A DNA stretch of 64,000 nt, from the NCBI GenBank assembly GCA_900155495.1, contig FTLJ01000573.1:1-64000 (forward strand), in the 5' to 3' direction. This stretch comes from Porogramme epimiltina (Eukaryota > Basidiomycota > Agaricomycetes > Polyporales > Polyporaceae). The notes under the pieces were generated by a model. That model worked only from the letters and a program-made list of their open reading frames with translations, made no database searches and was not told the origin of the DNA. Positions 13,298 to 32,910 of this stretch are shown piece after piece; position 1 is the first letter of the stretch, and each line of letters starts with the position of its first letter. The position numbers and the translations under genes were made by a program.

Positions 13298-14363
13298 TTA
13301 TTCGAAGACCGCCTTGCGCATTGTGTCGCGCTGGTATCGCGCGCCCTCTCGCTCGTGTAAAGGGAGCGGGTTGCTGCCCGCGTAGCCCCACGCGTACCCA
13401 AGGCTCTTCCCACCCATTTCTGGCGTCGGCCGCCAGAACGAGGGCTGTATGCGTGCCTTCTCGCGAGGCTTCTTCTTGGGCCGTTTTCTCTTGGTGTTCA
13501 TGCCAGTGTCAGAGGATAGCTCCACTTCAACTATAGGACAGCAGCTCGTCTCGTGTGCGTGGGGAGAGGGCTCGACTTTGAGGGAGGTATCGGATTGTGA
13601 AATGCGGGGAGGGATTGGGAGACCTTTTGTTCGCTCTAGAACGAGGATAGGCGGCTGAGGACCTGGGAGGTCGGCAGCCACCGATATGACCTTCGATGCC
13701 GTTTTCGATGACGGCTAGGGAATAGTCAACGACGTTTGAGAGTAAATATATAACAGTTAGAGAACGCACCGGGAAAGACACTTGAGACCCTGCTACAACC
13801 CACGCGAAGTCGACCGCAACCTCTCGTGCGCGCGATGCTCGCGTCACCGCCTCCTCGTTGGTATCTTCCAGTGCTGGCCCCTGCGATCTGTTGAATGGAA
13901 GTCAGAGGAGGCATGAGGAGACCACAGAGTGAAGGACGGACGTATAAACAGGAGCTAGTTTGGGTGTAATAACAACGGCCTTCGGCTGAGAGGACCCAGA
14001 AAATAGTCGAAACGCTGATAAAATGTCAGGCTGCATTGGACATCGTAAGGACCCGGGGAAAACAGCCGCGGAGGACGTACACACGGCAATAGGCTCCACA
14101 CGTCCTCCCTTCTCGCCATCCTTGGCAGTCTTTCGTCTCTTCCTCCGCGGAGCACTGTCTGGGTCTTCTTGAGGACGAGAAGAGACTGGAATGACGTCGT
14201 CAATCGTCCGCTTCAAGATGCTCTCTAGGCGGGCAAGCATCTGCGCATGGTCTGGGTTTGATTGAACAGGCTCATCTTCATTGTCCGAGTCGTTCAGGGC
14301 AGATCGAGATATTGTGGCCGTAGAGCTGAGTAAAGTATATGGATTTGTGTGTTTCGGGATCAT
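13298..14363 (-). CDS. Orphan basic nuclear-type protein
   Basis: Three exons: 14363 to about 13950, a middle exon about 13889-13776, and a last exon from about 13720 to 13298. The product is about 285 residues and I do not recognise a family. The N-terminal exon is acidic/polar (DSDNEDEPVQSNPDH) and then strongly basic (PRRKRRKTAK, an NLS-like run). The C-terminal exon has a second basic cluster (TKRKRPKKKPREKAR) followed by a compact segment, SFWRPTPEMGGKSLGYAWGY, that looks conserved by composition. Nuclear localisation is inferred. It lies tail-on to the laccase part of the chimeric gene; a decayed copy of exon 1 is found beside laccase B at 29.8 kb. Confidence 0.65.
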
Positions 14364-14916
14364 GGTAGAGATATTGGGTTGAGAACAAGGAGCGCACAGG
14401 TTCCTGGGCAGCTGACTTGGTGGCGCCAGGTGAACACACTCAAGTAGCGGCCGCGGCTCAAGCGCTCAGGACAAAGAGGCTGGGCTGGACGGCGCCAGGG
14501 CGAGCTACCGGGTGGGCAGCTTGCGCAACTATTATCTAGAGCATGCATGCTGGGTGCTGGCGCGAAGATCAAGAAACGTCTGTACATTTATCTGAGCTGG
14601 GTTTTTGTACGCATGATCGATTCTACAGCAAAGGAGGGACTGTCTGAGCAAGCAAGAAGGGAGCGATACGAAAAGGCGCGGAAAAGATGGTAGCTAACAT
14701 TTCAAGCGATACGATGTGATATCGGGGACAAGAACGATGGGAGGGACAAGAAAAATGGACGAGAAGGAAACAGGAGATAGACGTTGGGGGCCCGCCTCGC
14801 GGGCTCGACGCGCCCCTACAGTAAGGGCGGATGAGGGGATTCTGGAGAAGGAATTCCGTCTTGATTTGCCTTGATCCCTCTGAGTTCATCCTCATCCGTA
14901 TAGTTTTCGCCGGGGC
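14364..14916. other. Intergenic spacer, chimera 3' end / orphan gene 5' end
   Basis: A 553-base gap between the stop of the chimeric laccase and the start of the orphan gene, both on the minus strand. It must hold the laccase 3' UTR and the orphan promoter. No further gene is seen. Confidence 0.5.
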
Positions 14917-17900
14917 TTAGTGCTCGTTATCGGGAAGTTCGTTGTAAATGTCGCACAGCTCGTCCCACTCATCCGGAGGATGGACCGTATCGTTCGTAGT
15001 GCCGGGAATGTCTTCAGCGAGAACAACCGCGAGACCTGTTTCGAGATGGGGGTCTTTGTGGCAGTGGAGGAACCACGGCCCAGGGTTGTTCGTTTCGAAT
15101 CGGATCGTCACGTTGTCGTCCACCTTACCCGCGCTGACGGTGTCGCGCCACATCGGGTTCTCGTAGTTGGGTTTGTGTTGACCCGCGCTCTGCACAACAG
15201 CAAACGCGTGCTGTAAACACAGAAGGCATGCGTCAGGAACACCCGTTCCACGTACGGCACACACTGGTGAAGCGGAAATAAACTTGTACGTACACCGTGC
15301 ATGTGGAACGGGTGGGGTACGCCTCGTGTGTCTTTGTGGAGGAAGTTGATCTCGATAGTTTTGTTGATCGGAAGCGGGATGATGCTTCCCTTCGGCATCA
15401 GTTCCTCCGGCTTGTATTTACCACTCAGGATCTGCAGCAGGACGGGCACCTTCGGCGGTACGAAGGTGTGACCGTTGACGAGAAAGTGATTGCCCTCCTG
15501 TTGCATAATGTATAAGACGAGTTATAGATTTTCATAAAAATTGACGACAGTGGACTCACAACCGATATCTCAAGGCTAATGGGCTTGTCAACACCACCAG
15601 GGTAAGGGGCGCCAGGCTACGTAACACCTCTATGAGTGCGACTGCCCGGCCCCGGTCGTATTGGGATCACGTACCACTGGCATCGGCGTGAATGGAGCCA
15701 AATCTTGTTCACAGAGCATGTTGACTAGCGCGGGTGGTTCAGTGACGTTGGGGTCAGCCACAGGAGCACCCTCATAGCGCAGGATTGCAGAGTTGTTGCC
15801 ATTGGTGAAATTATTCGTGTTGGGGTTCGCGCGTATCCAATAATTGTCAATAGGTTGGTTCGCTTCAAGCTGTGCAAGTGATGTGAGGACCAGACACTCA
15901 GCTCTTGGTCAAGAAATAACTTACAACGAACGAGTATCTCTGTCCTGCGAAAATCTCCAGGGAGTCCACACGGTGTGGCTTGGTGCTGATAGAGTCAGCC
16001 ATGATGATGGTCATGTTGTGGCTGTCAATGCTAAAGATATAGTTCGGGTCGCACGACATAGACACAAGCCTGAAGCGGTAGCTTAAAGGTGATGAATGAA
16101 AGTGAGTTCATCGCGAGGACCTAACACAGCAGCTTCGTGCGCTCACCGTTTTCCCGGTGCAACTTTGATGACTGCCAATTCACCAGAGACATCGCCTGAA
16201 GGGGATTTGAAGCGGCTAAGGCCATTGATTAAAGTAGAGTCCGGTTTCCTGAACAAAGGTCTGAGTGAAGTATCAATAGAGGGTACAGGTCGTCTCCGAA
16301 ACTTACGCGCCACGCGGCAACAGATGGGCAGCAAGGTGGTACCAGTCAGCTAATGTGATTACGGTGTACTCTATTCAGTCACTATCATCAGAAGGATGCG
16401 AGTCATCATATAGCGACAGAGCACACCGTTGTCAACATCGTAGTACTGTTTCAGAGGGTCTTCCGGGTCGTAAACAACCATCGGGCCCCTCAAACCGTCG
16501 CAATATTGAGTGCTGAGGTGGCTGTGGTACCAGAATGTACCTACGAAAGATAGAACCTTATTAGAACGGAGCGACGGTCGTGGGCCTTTCCATACAAGTG
16601 CAGCTCACCAGATTGGTTACCACCGGTGAAGTTGTATAAGAACGAGTGTCCAGAAGCAATCGGACACTGGCTCACGAAAGCCGCGCCGTCGGCCCAGGTC
16701 GTGCCCTTCTGAAAGAACCCGTGCCAATGCTGTACCACTTTAATTCTTGTGCGCTACCAACCGATATAAACCCCATGGACCTACAATACTGGTAGTCATG
16801 TTCATAGTGTGGTTCGTCAAGTTATCGGTGACATTAATTAGGAACCGGTCACCCTATGCAGGTAGAGTTTATTGACAATTAATATTTACATATCGATGAC
16901 CGTATAGAATGGGACTACAGACCTTGTTACCCACGATGAGGGGTCCGGGAGTGCCGCCATTAACGACAATAGCAGCGCGCTGAAAACCATCGGGGGCGAC
17001 CCTCTGGTCAGTGATAGTGAGATTTGCGATGGGCCCGATGGCCGCGTGCGTCTCGTCGTATGGAAAGCCGTATGAATCTGCGCAACTGTCCTCTGCAAAG
17101 ATAGCGTGTATGAGGCATGGAAGACGATTTATGAAGGGGGGGTGGGCGTACTGAAGGACGCGGGGCACATAGTAGCAGTGTTATGACTGCCAGTGCAGCA
17201 ATTCGGGTTGCTGTCTAGGCGCCGAAGACGACAATGTCAATTATGCGCTGCGACGACGCAAGAGAAAACAGGGAGACATACTGTCGCCAGCACTGAAGCT
17301 AGGGTTGCATGCATTGTTGCATCCGACGAGTTGTCCCTGCCCATTTCCCGGGCCCTCGAGTTGGTCTGGGCCTGCATACACGGAGGACGCATAATGAGTG
17401 GCGGCGGCAGAGCGGGTAGAACAGCATGAGGGCAGCATACAGTTCACGTTGAGATCCGCCGAATGGGTTGTGTAGGAGCACCCCTTGTCGTTCGTGATCT
17501 GCATGGGAAATTCGAAGCCGTCGACAACGGGAACTGCTTGCGAGCGGCGAGAACTCAGTGAAGAGACGAGAAACTTGCATTGCTAAAATTGTACATGAGC
17601 GAGACTGACCATCGTAGTTGTCGTTCGCATTCTCATTGAGCGTAAACTCAGCAACGGTAGCAGGGGGCACACTCTACAAGGTGACTCAGAAACGTTAGCG
17701 GTGTTCAATTACCGAGGATGTGGACAATGCGGGACATACCTCGCCGGTGTTCTGATCACATTGTAAGCCGCCGTCGCATCCGCCGGAGACACATTGAGTC
17801 GGCCCGGGGACCCCCTTGCTGAAGTCGCAGGAGGGACGACCCTAAGCGGGAAAGGCAGTCAGCGCAGCCGGAGAGACGAATGGGAACCGGTGAAATGCAT

Positions 17901-18318
17901 ACCCAGATACGTCCGGACCCCCAGTTGTTCGAGACCTCTGATGGAACTGTCTGGTGGTCGTCTTGTTGCCATCTATGGCACGCAGCCAGAAATCAACGGC
18001 GGTTTCCCTAGCTTTCTTAAAGAGGAGCATTACCCAGCGACGTAGTCCGGCTTCGGGGGGCTCGCCGAGTCTGTGTGTAACTACGATGATTGATGGAGAG
18101 TGTCAGAACAGTATCACGGATGTTAACGGCAGAACATATACACGTACGCCAGGCCTACAGCATCGTCTAGCGTCAGCGAGTTCCATAGATCGGAGACCGA
18201 GGTGGTTAGCTCACCAAATCGTGAAGCCACAATTGTTTTCCACGGTCATCGTTCGCCCACCGGCCTCTGTAAAGAGGATGGCAAGCGCAATAGCGGCGCT
18301 AAGCAGAATTGCTTTCAT
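14917..18318 (-). CDS. Thaumatin-like protein/laccase fusion (laccase A)
   Basis: One uninterrupted exon series codes a secretory signal and thaumatin-like domain (residues 1-230) followed by a complete laccase (231 to about 729). The start at 18318 gives a hydrophobic signal ([16 protein letters not shown]). TLP hallmarks are [57 protein letters not shown] and CCTGSHNTA. The TLP stops after PYDETHA, without the terminal Cys-containing strands. In the same exon (ends 16922) the laccase begins [13 protein letters not shown], exactly where mature laccase B begins. All four laccase copper motifs are present: [30 protein letters not shown]+HAF (split by an intron) and [12 protein letters not shown]. 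Introns in the TLP half include 18155-18214, 18082-18147, 17973-18033 and 17534-17609. The laccase half keeps the same intron positions as laccases B and C. Oddities: no laccase promoter or signal peptide, a 7-nt microexon, and Lys and Pro at normally hydrophobic sites in the HCH motif. Confidence 0.8.
18148..18154 (-). other. 7-nt microexon in the TLP part
   Basis: Exon 1 ends in the codon for the Trp of CGFTIW (intron 18155-18214, GT-AG). Only with a 7-base exon (GCCTGGC) followed by a second intron (18081-18147) does the frame continue into [17 protein letters not shown], which matches the conserved N-terminal strand of fungal TLPs. Direct joining of the flanking exons gives stops or a wrong frame. 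Confidence 0.65.
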
Positions 18319-27166: not shown

Positions 27167-29374
27167 ATGGCGAAACTCTCTTTGTCGGTACCTCTCCTCG
27201 CCCTCGCCCTTACGATGGGGACGTACGCGGCCATTGGGCCCGTCGCCGATCTCGTCATTACCGACCAGACGGTCGCTCCCGACGGTTTTTCGCGCTCTGC
27301 TGTTGTCGTCAACGGTGGTACTCCCGGGCCCCTCATCAAGGGCTACAAGGTCCGTGATCTTTGCGCGGGCACGGATGTGTAGGCACTAATCGTGGATGAC
27401 ATCTATCCACACAGGGTGATAGGTTCCAAATCAACGTCATCGATAACTTGACGAACCATACTATGAACAAGACCACCAGCATTGTGGGTCCACGTCGTTA
27501 TGTCACTTCGGTACTGCACATGATCGTTAACGTGATGCCTTGGGCCCCACAGCACTGGCACGGTTTCTTCCAGAAGGGCACGACCTGGGCCGACGGCCCG
27601 GCTTTCGTGAGCCAGTGCCCGATCACCTCTGGGAACTCTTTCGTATACGATTTCACTGCTGCTGACCAATCCGGTATGTCAAGCTACGCGGAACAGCCCA
27701 TGACGCTCCGTTCTGATCGGGATCCATTTACCACAGGTACATTCTGGTACCACAGTCACCTCACTACTCAATATTGCGACGGGTTGAGGGGCCCGCTCGT
27801 TGTTTACGACCCAGAGGACCCTCTCAAGCAGTACTATGACGTTGACGACGGTATGTTCTTTCGCTGGATGATGAATCGCATCTTTCTGACGACAGTGACG
27901 AAATAGAGTCCACCGTGATCACACTGGCTGACTGGTACCACCGTGCTGCTCACCTGTTGCCTCCTGGCCCGTAAGCTTTAGAGACGACTTGTATCCTATA
28001 TTAATAGCTGACCAAGAACCGTGTTTTAGTACTGCGGACTCTACTTTGATCAACGGCCTTGGCCGCTTTATAACCCCATCGGGGGCTCCCTCGGGTGACT
28101 TGGCAGTTATCAGCGTTACCTATGGAAAGCGGTAAGTGCACGAAGCCACTGCGCCGGGTCTTCACGATAGGCTCATTTCCATCCGTCACCGTTCAGCTAC
28201 CGCTTCCGGCTTGTGTCATTGGCGTGCGACCCAAACTACGTGTTTAGCATTGACAACCACGATATGACCATCATCGAAGCCGACTCTATTAGCAGCAAGC
28301 CACACACCGTCGACTCCCTGCAGATTTTCGCAGCACAGCGGTACTCGTTTGTTGTAAGTCATTTCTCGGCTGATAGGTGAATGTTTGATCCTCACATCAC
28401 TCGCACAGCTTGAAGCGAATCAACCCATTGACAACTACTGGATCCGTGCAAACCCCCACGGCACCAGTAACTTCACCAGCGGCATCAACTCTGCCATCCT
28501 GCGCTATGACGGCGCCCCTGTGGCTGAACCCAACGTCATTGAGCCACCTGCACTTGTCAACCTCCTCCGTGAACAAGATTTGACTCCGTTCACCCCGATG
28601 CCAGTGGTACGTGATCACAACATGACCGCAGGTGTGCAGTCGCGCTTATAGAGGTGTCACATAGCCTGGCACTCCTTACCCTGGTGGCGTTGACAAGCCC
28701 CTTAGCCTTAACTTTTCGTTCGTGAGTCCACCTCCATCGTTACAACTTCTTTGTGAAGTCCTACGACTCATCCTGTACATCATACAACAGACCGCCCCCC
28801 ACTTCTTCATCAATGGCCACACCTTCAATTCGCCGAAGGTGCCTGTCCTGCTGCAGATCCTGAGCGGCGCGCATACGGCGCAGGAGCTGATGCCCGAAGG
28901 GAGCGTCATCCCCCTCCCGATTAACAAGTCCATCGAAATCAACTTCCCCAACGGAAATGGTGCACCAGGGGGGCCCCACCCCTTCCACTTGCACGGTGTA
29001 CGTAGGAGTTCCTTCCTCCCTCGCCAATGTGCAATGCATGTATCGGAGGGACTGTTGCTGACGCGCGCCTTCTTTCCCTGCAGCACGCGTTTGCGGTTGT
29101 GCGCAGCGCGGGCCAAACCGAACCCAACTACGAGAACCCGATGTGGCGCGACACCGTCAGCGCGGGTGTAATGGGCGACAACGTCACGATCCGGTTCGAG
29201 ACTAACAACCCTGGGCCGTGGTTCCTCCACTGCCACATCGATTTCCACCTCGACGCCGGTTTCGCGGTCGTCCTCGCTGAAGACATCCCGGACACGGCGA
29301 TTGCAAACCCGATCCCGATCGAGTGGGACGAACTTTGCCCCATCTATGACCTGCTTCCCGACAGCGAGCACTAG
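27167..29374 (+). CDS. Laccase B (multicopper oxidase)
   Basis: Secreted blue copper oxidase (benzenediol:O2 oxidoreductase) for lignin, phenol or pigment chemistry. Eleven exons: 27167-27349, 27415-27483, 27553-27673, 27737-27850, 27907-27970, 28030-28131, 28197-28353, 28409-28606, 28665-28721, 28791-28997, 29084-29374; together 520 residues, the family's usual length. The ATG in acaccATGG starts a signal peptide ([21 protein letters not shown]) before mature [20 protein letters not shown]. Copper ligands are in [41 protein letters not shown]+HAF and [12 protein letters not shown]. The residue after the final Gly is Phe, the type linked to high redox potential laccases. Tandem with laccase C in the same direction. 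Confidence 0.95.
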
Positions 29375-29791
29375 GTTTCAGTTGGGTATCTATGTCTTGA
29401 CGAGTGTCGCAGGACCCTAGTATCGCGTATGATGGACCTCTGAGGCTGAGGAACTGATTTATAGTCAATATCCGAGTAATGTACATATCTATGTCGGGAT
29501 AATTGAATAATACCCTTCAACTTGAATGCAGTATTGTGCCGACCTGTTGTATACGAACCGTGAGACTTATAATTTACCAAGAGACGTGATCTTTATGACC
29601 ACTGGCATGGCATAGGCATCATATAACTGATCACGTGTTCGATCCTAGATCTCATGTGCCTCAAACCTCCAATTTCGGGAAACGGCAACTTAAATCAGAT
29701 TGATGACACTGCCTGGCCAAGGTCATTCGCTACTAATTCAGCTACTCAGGAATCTGTCTTGCACACGCTTTGTTTTCGTCTTGCTATCTCT
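29375..29791. other. Intergenic spacer after laccase B
   Basis: About 420 bases between laccase B and the decayed orphan-gene copy. AT-richer than the genes; laccase 3' UTR. Nothing else seen. Confidence 0.45.
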
Positions 29792-30100
29792 ATGGTCTTC
29801 AAACACCCCAATCTGTGTCCTCTGCTTAGTTCCACAGTCACTATCTCTTGGTTCCCTCTCAACCCGGGCAACGAAGACGAGCCTGTCCACTCAAACCCGG
29901 AATATACACAGATGTTTGCCCGCCTAGGGAGCATGTTGAAATGCACTACTGTTGACATCACATCAACTTCCTATGTCCCTCAAGAGACCCTGATGGTGCT
30001 TCGCGTAAGATCAAACGAAGGACCGCTAAGTAGAACAAGATGGAACGGGGACATAGGAAGCTCGTTGCTGTCTGCACGTCTCCTGCAGCGACTTTAATGA
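29792..30100 (+). pseudogene. Decayed copy of exon 1 of the 13.3-14.4 kb orphan gene
   Basis: Translation from 29792 (MVFKHPN, then LLSSTVTIS, NEDEPVHSNPEYTQMFARLGSML and VPQE) aligns residue by residue with the start of the orphan gene at 14363 (LLSSTATIS, NEDEPVQSNPDHAQMLARLESIL, RPQE). A one-base deletion after the PQE codons (about 29985) shifts the frame. In the shifted frame homology continues (DPDGASRKIKRRTAK against DPDSAPRRKRRKTAK), then a TAG stop, then KLVAVCTSPAA against EPIAVCTSSAA. Later exons are missing. It follows laccase B in the same order and relative direction as the parent follows laccase A. Confidence 0.85.
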
Positions 30101-30446
30101 AGACTTTCTAATGTGGCCTGATGTATGTTTAGTGATCCTCCTGATCCTCTCAACCGAGGTCCGTTGTCATTATATCTAAGCCGGCTCCTCTTTATACTTC
30201 TGTCCCCTTTTTGTGTTTCCCTCATACCGCCTGTCGCAAGGACCCTCAGCGGAAGATATCAGCGTGGGGTAGGGGGATTAGCATCGGGCCCACGAAAGAT
30301 TGCGATTGACCTCCCGGGGGGGTCGCAGAGTCCAAGGTGACCTGCCCAGTGCGTTTACCGACCGTCCTGCACTTGCCCACCAACCTTACTCACTCTTGCC
30401 CTAGTCGCGGCTAAACCGTCATCAAAGGTAGCTTTATGCACCACTG

Positions 30447-30744: not shown

Positions 30745-32910
30745 ATGGTGAAGCTCTCTCTTCTGGAACCTCTCCTGGTCCTCGTCATCGCGATGGGGGC
30801 ATATGCGGCGACCATCAGGCCCGTCACGAACCTCGTCATCACTGACAAGACGGTCGCTCCCGACGGCTTTCCGCGCGCTGCTGTTGTCGTCAACGGTAGT
30901 ACTCCTGGGCCCCTCATCATAGGCAACAAGGTCCGTAGTCATATTCTGATATACGACAGTCTTCATTGTGAACAGGATCTATCTACGCAGGGTGACCGGT
31001 TTCGAATCAACGTCACCGATAGCTTGAAGAACCATACTATGAATAAGACCACCAGTATTGTGAGTCTATGGTGTTTCTTTCACTTGGTAGTGCACAAGAA
31101 TTAACATGATACAGCATTGGCACGGATTCTTTCAGAAGGGCACGACCTGGGCTGATGGCGCGGCCTTCGTGAGCCAGTGCCCAATCGCTTCTGGGCACTC
31201 GTTCATGTACGACTTCACCGCTGCTGACCAATCTGGTAAGTTACACTGTATGGAACGCCCCACGACGCTCCGTTCCAATCGGGTTCCATTTTCCATAGGT
31301 ACATTCTGGTACCACAGCCATCTCACCACTCAATATTGCGATGGTTTGAGGGGCCCGATGGTTGTTTACGACCCAGAGGACCCTCTCAAGCAGTACTACG
31401 ACGTTGACAACGGTATGTTCTTTCGCAGTACGATAACTCGCACCCTTCTGACGACAGTGGTGAAATAAATAGAGTTCACTGTGATCACATTGGCTGACTG
31501 GTACCACCGTGCTGCTCACTTGTTGCCGCATGGACCTCCTCCGTAGGTGTCGGATGCAACATGCGGCCTGTATCAATAACCGACTCAGGACCGTGTTTAG
31601 GGCTCCGGACTCCACTTTGATCAACGGCCTTAGCCGCTTTGTATCCCCTTCAGGCACTGTCTCGGGCAACTTGGCAGTCATCAGCGTTACACAAGGAAAG
31701 CGGTGAGTACAGGAAGCTGCTCTGTCCTCGCGGTGAACTCATTTTCATTCGTCACCGTTAAGCTATCGCTTCCGGCTTGTGTCGATGTCGTGCGACCCGT
31801 TCTACGTCTTTAGCATTGACAACCATGACATGACGATCATCGAAGCTGACTCTGTCAGCAGCAAGCCACACCGTGTTGACTCTCTGCAGATCTTCGCAGG
31901 ACAGAGATACTCGTTTGTTGTAAGTACATTTTTAGCCAAAGCTGAACATCTGATCCTCACATCACTTGCACAGCTCAAGGCGGATCAACCCATTGACAAC
32001 TACTGGATCCGCGCGAACCCCCACGGCGAGGGTAACTTCACCAACGGCATCAACTCTGCTATCCTGCGCTATGAGGGCGCCCCTGCAGCCGATCCCGACG
32101 TGACCAAGCCGCCTGTGTTAGTCAACCAACTCTGTGAACAAGATTTGACCCCATTCACCCCGATGCCGGTGGTGCGTGATTTCGACATGCCTGAGGGCGT
32201 GCAGTTGCGCTTATAAGGGTATTTTGTAGCCTGGCGCCCCTTATCCTAGTGGTGTTGACAAGCCTCTGAGCCTTGAGATTTCGTTCGTGAGTCTACCGCT
32301 GTCACTATGAGACCCTATAACACGTCCTATACGTCGTACAACAGAAGGACTCCAACTTCCGCATCAATGATCATACCTTCGTACCGCCAAAGGTCCCTGT
32401 CCTGCTGCAGATCCTGAGCGGCAAGCACAAACCGGAGGAGCTGATGCCCAAGGAAAGCATCATCCCGCTTCCGATCAACAAGTCCATCGAGATGAGCTTC
32501 CTCAACGGACACGATTCTAAAGGCGGGCCTCACCCCTTTCACTTGCACGGTGTACGTCCCAGTTTCTCTCCACCTTGCCAATCAGTGTGTCTGTTCCTGA
32601 CGCACACCTTCACCTACAGCACATGTTTGCGGTCGTGCGCAGCGCGGGCCAGGCCAAACCCAACTACGTAAACCCGATGTGGCGCGACACCGTCAGCGCG
32701 GGTGGACCTGGGGACAACGTCACGATCCGGTTCGAAACGAACAACCCCGGGCCGTGGTTCCTCCATTGCCACATTGACTTCCACCTCGACGCTGGACTTG
32801 CGGTTGTCTTCGCTGAAGACATTCCTGACACGGGGCCCGCGAACCCGGTCCCGGTCGAGTGGGACGAACTGTGCCCCATCTACGATCAACTTCCCGACAA
32901 CGAGCACTAA
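30745..32910 (+). CDS. Laccase C (multicopper oxidase)
   Basis: Paralogue of laccase B with the same eleven-exon plan: 30745-30930, 30991-31059, 31115-31235, 31299-31412, 31473-31542, 31601-31702, 31763-31919, 31974-32171, 32230-32286, 32345-32551, 32620-32910; 523 residues. Signal peptide [21 protein letters not shown], then [20 protein letters not shown]. Copper motifs [41 protein letters not shown]+HMF and [12 protein letters not shown]. The T1 axial-type residue is Leu (Phe in B), so substrate range or redox potential may differ. The intron ending at 31762 uses an AAG acceptor where B uses CAG. The reading frame is intact. Confidence 0.95.

Follow-up and report, generated by a model that had tools for sequence, protein, structure and literature searches.

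Organization of the fusion locus

The analyzed window is a 64,000-nucleotide stretch of DNA from Porogramme epimiltina (contig FTLJ01000573.1, positions 1 to 64,000, of assembly GCA_900155495.1). On its minus strand, a single open frame without a stop runs from 18318 to 14917 through 20 exons, and all 19 introns are of the GT-AG type. The spliced product has 732 residues; with the exon 15 acceptor that is homologous to that of LAC1 and LAC2, two intact laccase genes of the same window (Table 1), it has 728. A presumed signal peptide is followed in this product by a thaumatin-like protein (TLP) half and then by a complete laccase. Neither a stop codon nor a frameshift nor a broken splice site was found across the 20 exons. 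The initial annotation of a TLP with signal peptide that continues in frame, without a stop, into a complete laccase is thus confirmed with respect to the frame.

The exon structure of each half is that of its own family. The TLP exons were compared with those of the closest TLP paralogue, located on contig C895 of the same genome: nine intron positions are shared, the phases match, and exon lengths of 104, 7, 47, 70, 102, 93 and 90 bases are identical. Two exons of the fusion are shorter without loss of frame, by 3 bases (64 versus 67) and by 21 bases (63 versus 84). The laccase exons match those of both LAC1 and LAC2. Upstream of the start codon, the C895 TLP carries TATAAAAG at a position comparable to that of the TATAAATA box of the fusion. 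An internal start of the laccase was ruled against by the unspliced frame (ORF 16869..17180), which holds no ATG from the stop that precedes 17180 up to the start of the mature laccase. In the spliced message, the nearest in-frame ATG lies in TLP exon 9 (MCPAS...); a spliced transcript that begins inside the TLP could possibly use it, and the product would be a laccase without a signal peptide.

The Pfam scan and the protein searches reported below were made with a 755-residue gene model (for the search for TLP homologues, its first 253 residues). In this model, the TLP query carries 23 residues from the 69-base intron 17440..17372, and the laccase query carries 4 possibly intronic residues.

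Table 1. Features of the fusion gene and of the related sequences in the window
Feature	Position	Strand	Basis
TATAAATA box, ~80 bases 5′ of the TLP start codon	18396..18403	−	Read from the sequence; putative function
Start codon and presumed signal peptide (21 residues), followed by RTMTV	18256..18318	−	Putative cleavage site, from homology to other TLPs
TLP half: exons 1-9 and first 41 bases of exon 10	17052..18318	−	Exon structure of the C895 TLP; Pfam PF00314
TLP exons 1-5	18318-18215, 18154-18148, 18080-18034, 17972-17903, 17841-17740	−	
TLP exons 6-9 and part of exon 10	17673-17610, 17533-17441, 17371-17282, 17214-17152, 17092-17052	−	
TLP exon 9, shorter by 21 in-frame bases than in the C895 TLP (GVDFYHY gone)	17152..17214	−	63 vs 84 bases, same phase; alignment
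Junction: TAC GAC GAG / ACG CAC GCG, then GCC ATC GGG	17043..17052	−	Start of LAC1 similarity; codons
Laccase half, from the mature Ala (AIGPIANL) to the stop	14917..17042	−	11/11 copper ligands
Laccase exons, first part	17042-16923, 16853-16785, 16729-16609, 16540-16427, 16370-16307, 16260 (or 16248)-16147	−	
Laccase exons, remainder	16081-15925, 15869-15675, 15616-15560, 15497-15294, 15210-14917	−	
Sequence 3′ of the fused laccase, matching LAC1 downstream sequence 29728-30355 (+)	13763..14425	−	blastn, 64% over 672 columns, E 4e-25
LAC1, intact 11-exon laccase carrying a signal sequence of its own at the N-terminus	27167..29374	+	Gene model
LAC2, intact 11-exon laccase carrying a signal sequence of its own at the N-terminus	30745..32910	+	Gene model

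The junction and the origin of the fused laccase

The two halves meet inside exon 10 (17092..16923), at about 17052/17051. We placed the break there because the similarity to LAC1 starts at 17052 in the DNA (blastn) and at 17051 in the protein, where it sets in with residue 19 of the 61-residue first exon of LAC1. Since this exon spans both sides, the junction lies within one exon, as had been stated. The window contains no N. At the matching place, the C895 TLP reads TAC GAC GAG CCG AGC CAC ACC GCG CTC TGG, and LAC1 reads GGG ACG TAC GCG GCC ATT GGG. The Thr-His-Ala that stands ahead of AIGP in the fusion aligns with Thr-Tyr-Ala, the end of the presumed signal peptide of LAC1, and is probably encoded by the last three codons left from the former laccase signal peptide. 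By this alignment, the join is probably not located exactly at the N-terminus of the mature laccase, where it had previously been placed.

LAC1 and LAC2 are arranged in tandem ~9 and 12 kb from the fused laccase and are inverted relative to it. They are 81% alike in protein. The fused laccase resembles LAC2 (81% in protein) more than LAC1, with a DNA identity over 14917-17052 of 78.5% for LAC2, compared to 77.3% for LAC1 (blastn). The matching flanking sequences (Table 1) occupy the same relative place, 3′ of the fused laccase and 3′ of LAC1. Because both the laccase and its 3′ flank resemble the LAC1 region, the laccase and the downstream flank were duplicated as a unit. Judged from these similarities, the fused laccase is a 5′-truncated copy of this duplicated unit. 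A rearrangement would have joined a TLP gene, cut at its 3′ side after the Tyr-Asp-Glu codons, to the laccase copy, whose 5′ end would have been removed up to a point inside the signal-peptide sequence, where it meets the TLP; this order of events is one that we infer. Insertion of the laccase into a TLP gene whose tail lies farther downstream was rejected, as no such tail was found in the 64-kb window by lenient tblastn, where all matches besides the exon of the fusion itself had E values of at least 0.17. The duplicated downstream sequence also has a 187-codon open frame (13902-14465) with no Pfam match, which may be a gene or a remnant.

The laccase half

The laccase half contains all three multicopper-oxidase domains (PF07732, 5.8e-36; PF00394, 1.2e-46; PF07731, 1e-33; 755-residue model). 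All 11 copper ligands (ten His and one Cys, in HWHG, HSH, HPFHxHGH and HCHxxxH) and all five reference cysteines are kept, and the Asp motif of the substrate pocket, SCDPN, is present. One extra Cys occurs at position 302 of the laccase part. The three domains, the copper ligands and the five cysteines are shared with the basidiomycete laccases sensu stricto (Trametes/Pycnoporus cinnabarinus, PDB 2XYB; LAC1 and LAC2), and the exon structure is shared with LAC1 and LAC2. Unlike these laccases, the fused laccase has no signal peptide of its own and is preceded by ~230 TLP residues.

For a comparison with homologues, we aligned 117 of the best 120 of 3292 protein matches, after three of 965-1057 residues had been dropped. 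Of the 201 columns with 95% identity, the fused laccase has seven substituted and two absent, one of the latter being the start Met of the lost signal peptide. In the same columns, LAC2 has seven substitutions and LAC1 has one, and the homologues have a median of two and a maximum of 12, with at least seven in 10 of the 117. The best match of standard size among the 120 listed is a laccase of Trametes cinnabarina (64%). The three long proteins (P0020, P0021 and P0022, laccase-family members from Psilocybe, Gymnopilus and Pyrrhoderma) score above it at 51-55% and are perhaps tandem laccases or merged gene models.

The axial position 461 of the type 1 (T1) copper is Leu, one of the two residues (Phe or Leu) expected of a laccase sensu stricto; 13 of the 117 homologues also have Leu, compared to Phe in the other 104. 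Departures occur close to this copper. Ile453, next to the T1 Cys-His, is replaced with Lys (116 Ile and one Val among the 117), and Phe455, a Phe/Trp position two residues further on, with Pro, which occurs in six of the 117. These two replacements set the fused laccase apart from the laccases sensu stricto. In addition, Glu222, present in all 117 homologues, is replaced with Met. In models of two fungal laccases described in the available text of PMC4303304, the Ile and the Trp/Phe two residues on that we regard as equivalent line the T1 pocket. The Ile-to-Lys and Phe-to-Pro replacements in this loop may perhaps have changed the substrate preference, and the replacements of Ile453 and Glu222 could mean a loss of activity.

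The ratio dN/dS of the fused laccase branch, obtained from three-point differences over 496 codons, was 0.177 (NG86) and 0.172 (YN00). The corresponding values were 0.229 and 0.191 for the LAC1 branch, and 0.184 and 0.154 for the LAC2 branch. As far as can be told from its sequence, the laccase half is mostly sound.

The TLP half

The Pfam Thaumatin profile (PF00314) matches the fusion with an E value of 4.3e-40, but at profile positions 1-193 of 209 (755-residue model); the TLP half stops ~23 residues early. Its best protein match is from Lentinus tigrinus (P0002, 49%). We aligned it with 17 fungal TLPs (P0002-P0018), leaving out an 18th match (P0019), which is a fragment. Sixteen cysteines are invariant in all 17, and 13 of these are kept in the fusion: the cysteine of rank 7 is replaced with His, and those of ranks 15 and 16 are cut off. 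If the disulfide pairing of thaumatin is, as we assume for these ranks, 1-16, 6-15 and 7-14, three of the eight disulfides are predicted to be lost and three cysteines of the TLP half to be left unpaired.

Near-invariant columns were defined as those with at most one dissenter (70 columns), and the rule was applied alike to the fusion and to each homologue, the latter being compared with the remaining 16. The fusion has seven of the 70 columns substituted and eight deleted, six of them by the truncation and two by the 7-residue deletion in exon 9. Among the 17 homologues, substituted columns number 0-5 and deleted ones 0-1; the TLPs on contigs C895 and C485, two of the nine of this genome, have none of either kind. 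By this comparison, the deletions and the lost cysteines are firm evidence for damage to the TLP half, whereas the number of substitutions exceeds that of the homologues by a moderate margin only. In an AlphaFold2 model of the L. tigrinus TLP (mean pLDDT 80.9, pTM 0.80, 17 sequences), three residues of the helix 220-224 are removed by the 7-residue deletion, and the last two strands, 244-246 and 254-258, are both cut off. The charged residues R80, E121, D131, D134 and D236 (P0002 numbering), invariant in the 17 TLPs, are all kept in the fusion. These five may correspond to the charged REDDD residues of the TLP cleft. The dN/dS of the TLP branch was ~0.19 (NG86; dN 0.177, dS 0.94), a weak value given pairwise dS of 1.0-2.0, near saturation.

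The fusion shares the presumed signal peptide, the 13 cysteines and the invariant charged residues with fungal TLPs (the C895 TLP, L. tigrinus P0002 and Puccinia graminis 7P23). It is unlike them in that it ends ahead of the final two strands, where cysteines 15 and 16 lie, has His at cysteine 7 and a 7-residue deletion, and continues into a laccase. A typical TLP has 16 conserved cysteines and a domain that is complete to the C-terminal FCP strand; neither was found in the fusion, and the TLP is not complete. The earlier statement that there is no sign of decay does not hold for the TLP half. According to the available text of PMC3048497, typical TLPs form eight disulfides from 16 cysteines and small TLPs have 10 cysteines, one or two of which are missing from small TLPs of ascomycetes and basidiomycetes; the P. 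graminis TLP 7P23 is described with six disulfides in the corresponding part of PMC13148976. A TLP with fewer disulfides is therefore not impossible.

Related proteins and known TLP fusions

The fragment P0019, from a 1331-base ENA contig, aligns with the window at 17720..17253 with 68% identity over 156 columns, through the introns and with one single-residue gap. The C895 locus gave 36% over 192 columns with many gaps. By these alignments, P0019 is a close relative of the TLP of the fusion. It has Ser at cysteine rank 6 and keeps rank 7. The partner of rank 6 is presumably rank 15, which is cut off in the fusion.

When the TLP part was searched against candidates of 415-1321 residues, one of 1005 passed the threshold of 0.001, a 517-residue Puccinia protein with a thaumatin domain only. 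No thaumatin domain is listed among the best 120 of the 3292 laccase matches. These searches require shared five-residue words and cover annotated proteins, as distinct from unannotated genomes. A full-text literature search for thaumatin joined with laccase or multicopper oxidase found no TLP-laccase protein in the text available from it; in the available parts of PMC3948071 and PMC3835972, TLPs and laccases are separate proteins, and "fusion protein" refers to a nuclear fusion protein. The broader literature on laccase fusions, including PMC10741624, gave no TLP-laccase in titles and the opening lines of abstracts. Within these protein and literature searches, no precedent was found, in line with the initial annotation, which knew of no described fusion of this kind, and no other fungus has a protein of this architecture among the matches listed. 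The nearest known TLP fusions among those found are the plant TLP-kinases, in which a TLP domain is likewise joined to another catalytic domain in one protein (PMC3048497, available text). However, their partner is a kinase, with a membrane segment in between in the small-TLP-kinase, whereas the present fusion joins a truncated TLP to a secreted oxidase without a linker.

Interpretation of the fusion

The assembled sequence contains an in-frame fusion with a defined junction, a duplicated laccase-plus-flank unit, losses in the TLP half and constraint on the laccase branch. We consider it best explained, with a probability of about 55%, as a real chimeric gene in which the TLP half provides the promoter, the start codon and the signal peptide for the laccase and is otherwise a passenger that has probably lost its own fold. 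Transcription would start from the TLP promoter, and the TLP signal peptide would export the product. The TLP half would no longer fold as a thaumatin domain and would serve as a passenger leader, and the laccase half would fold and oxidize phenols, perhaps with a changed substrate preference. Most likely, the product is not a sound two-domain protein. We favor a role of the TLP half in start and export over a working TLP because pieces that probably matter for the fold (strands, part of a helix and cysteines) are gone. The reading as a real chimeric gene counts on the frame, open with homologous splice sites throughout, on a dN/dS of the laccase branch like those of LAC1 and LAC2, and on departures of the fused laccase from near-invariant columns that are about as many as in LAC2. 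As the laccase branch may for the most part be older than the fusion, its dN/dS is not proof of function since that event.

Whether selection has maintained the frame after the fusion was approached by a simulation of drift. Of the near-invariant TLP columns, 62 remain in the fusion, and the seven that are substituted (11%) were converted to ~0.05 changes per site, substitutions only. At this level, all of 300 simulated copies acquired a stop codon or a hit in a splice site. This suggests selection on the frame, provided that the seven substitutions postdate the fusion and arose without constraint. The argument is weak, as the homologues carry up to five such substitutions, and some of the seven may be of an ordinary kind that predates the fusion.

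It is unlikely that the gene is instead a young dead chimera, hardly expressed or misfolded and on its way to a pseudogene, with a frame that is open only since the fusion is recent. The damaged TLP half, the replacements of Ile453 and Glu222 in the laccase, the unpaired cysteines that would be expected in the secreted protein and the lack of a second fusion among the protein matches listed are all consistent with such a fate. Against it stand the 20 exons with no disabling change, the drift simulation, provided that its assumption holds, and the likeness to the intact LAC2 in near-invariant departures and in branch dN/dS.

The initial annotation had proposed a bifunctional protein, in which the TLP half still binds β-glucan and puts the laccase on the cell wall. 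This proposal is improbable and finds no support in the state of the TLP half, from which the two final strands, the greater part of a helix and three predicted disulfides are gone, and in which eight of the 70 near-invariant columns are deleted, compared to a maximum of one in the homologues. Consistent with it are the kept frame, the five invariant charged residues, the TLP-branch dN/dS, though near saturation, and the number of substituted near-invariant columns, seven, which is only moderately above the homologue maximum of five. Moreover, the six disulfides of the Puccinia TLP (PMC13148976, available text) indicate that eight are not obligatory. Some residual contact with glucan is possible, given the kept charged residues. 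Quite improbable, too, is a functional TLP-laccase in which the shortened TLP, its charged residues intact but its disulfides fewer, recognizes glucan and targets a laccase with an altered T1 site to the wall, with P0019 representing a second lineage with a truncated or fused TLP.

If the chimeric gene is expressed as in the preferred reading, it would be a secreted oxidase that has exchanged its own promoter and signal peptide for the corresponding parts of a secreted protein unrelated to it, and it would show the fate of a leftover domain. It would also be a testable case of a duplicated laccase that gains a new expression pattern, and a test of how well a laccase tolerates a large N-terminal extension, which is relevant to laccase engineering.

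Search of the assembly for orphan gene parts

A wrong join of two separate loci in the contig would be expected to leave an orphan TLP tail and an orphan laccase first exon elsewhere in the assembly (41.9 Mb, a draft of 926 contigs). A genome search for PF00314 gave 19 matches, which were sorted by place into nine genes that all show both a central and a C-terminal match, the fusion not being among them; a search for TLP tails found nine, at the same nine places. The search for laccase first exons gave 14 matches, of which the fused one alone starts at residue 19 and the 13 others start at residues 1-10. Each of these 13 pairs by place with a 3′ end among 28 Cu-oxidase_2 matches. Neither a TLP tail nor a laccase first exon was thus left without a partner in the 926 contigs, with counts that are lower bounds in a draft, and this speaks against misassembly. 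Such an artefact is very unlikely: the draft state of the assembly and the missing second case of a TLP-laccase would fit it, but it is opposed by the complete pairing, by a window free of N, by a join that is in frame, and by the deletion and the lost cysteine in the TLP half, which lie upstream of the join.

Two Cu-oxidase_2 matches, C239:107904-108149 and C774:36760-36924, have no laccase first exon found nearby and are perhaps other multicopper oxidases. Some of the TLP genes of this genome form clusters, with four on C485 (11.9-20.3 kb) and two on C310 (1.6-4.9 kb). The closest paralogue of the fused TLP (locus L024 on C895, 3088-4584) continues for 16 residues beyond FCP, more than any of the 17 homologues, among which P0014 has the next longest extension.
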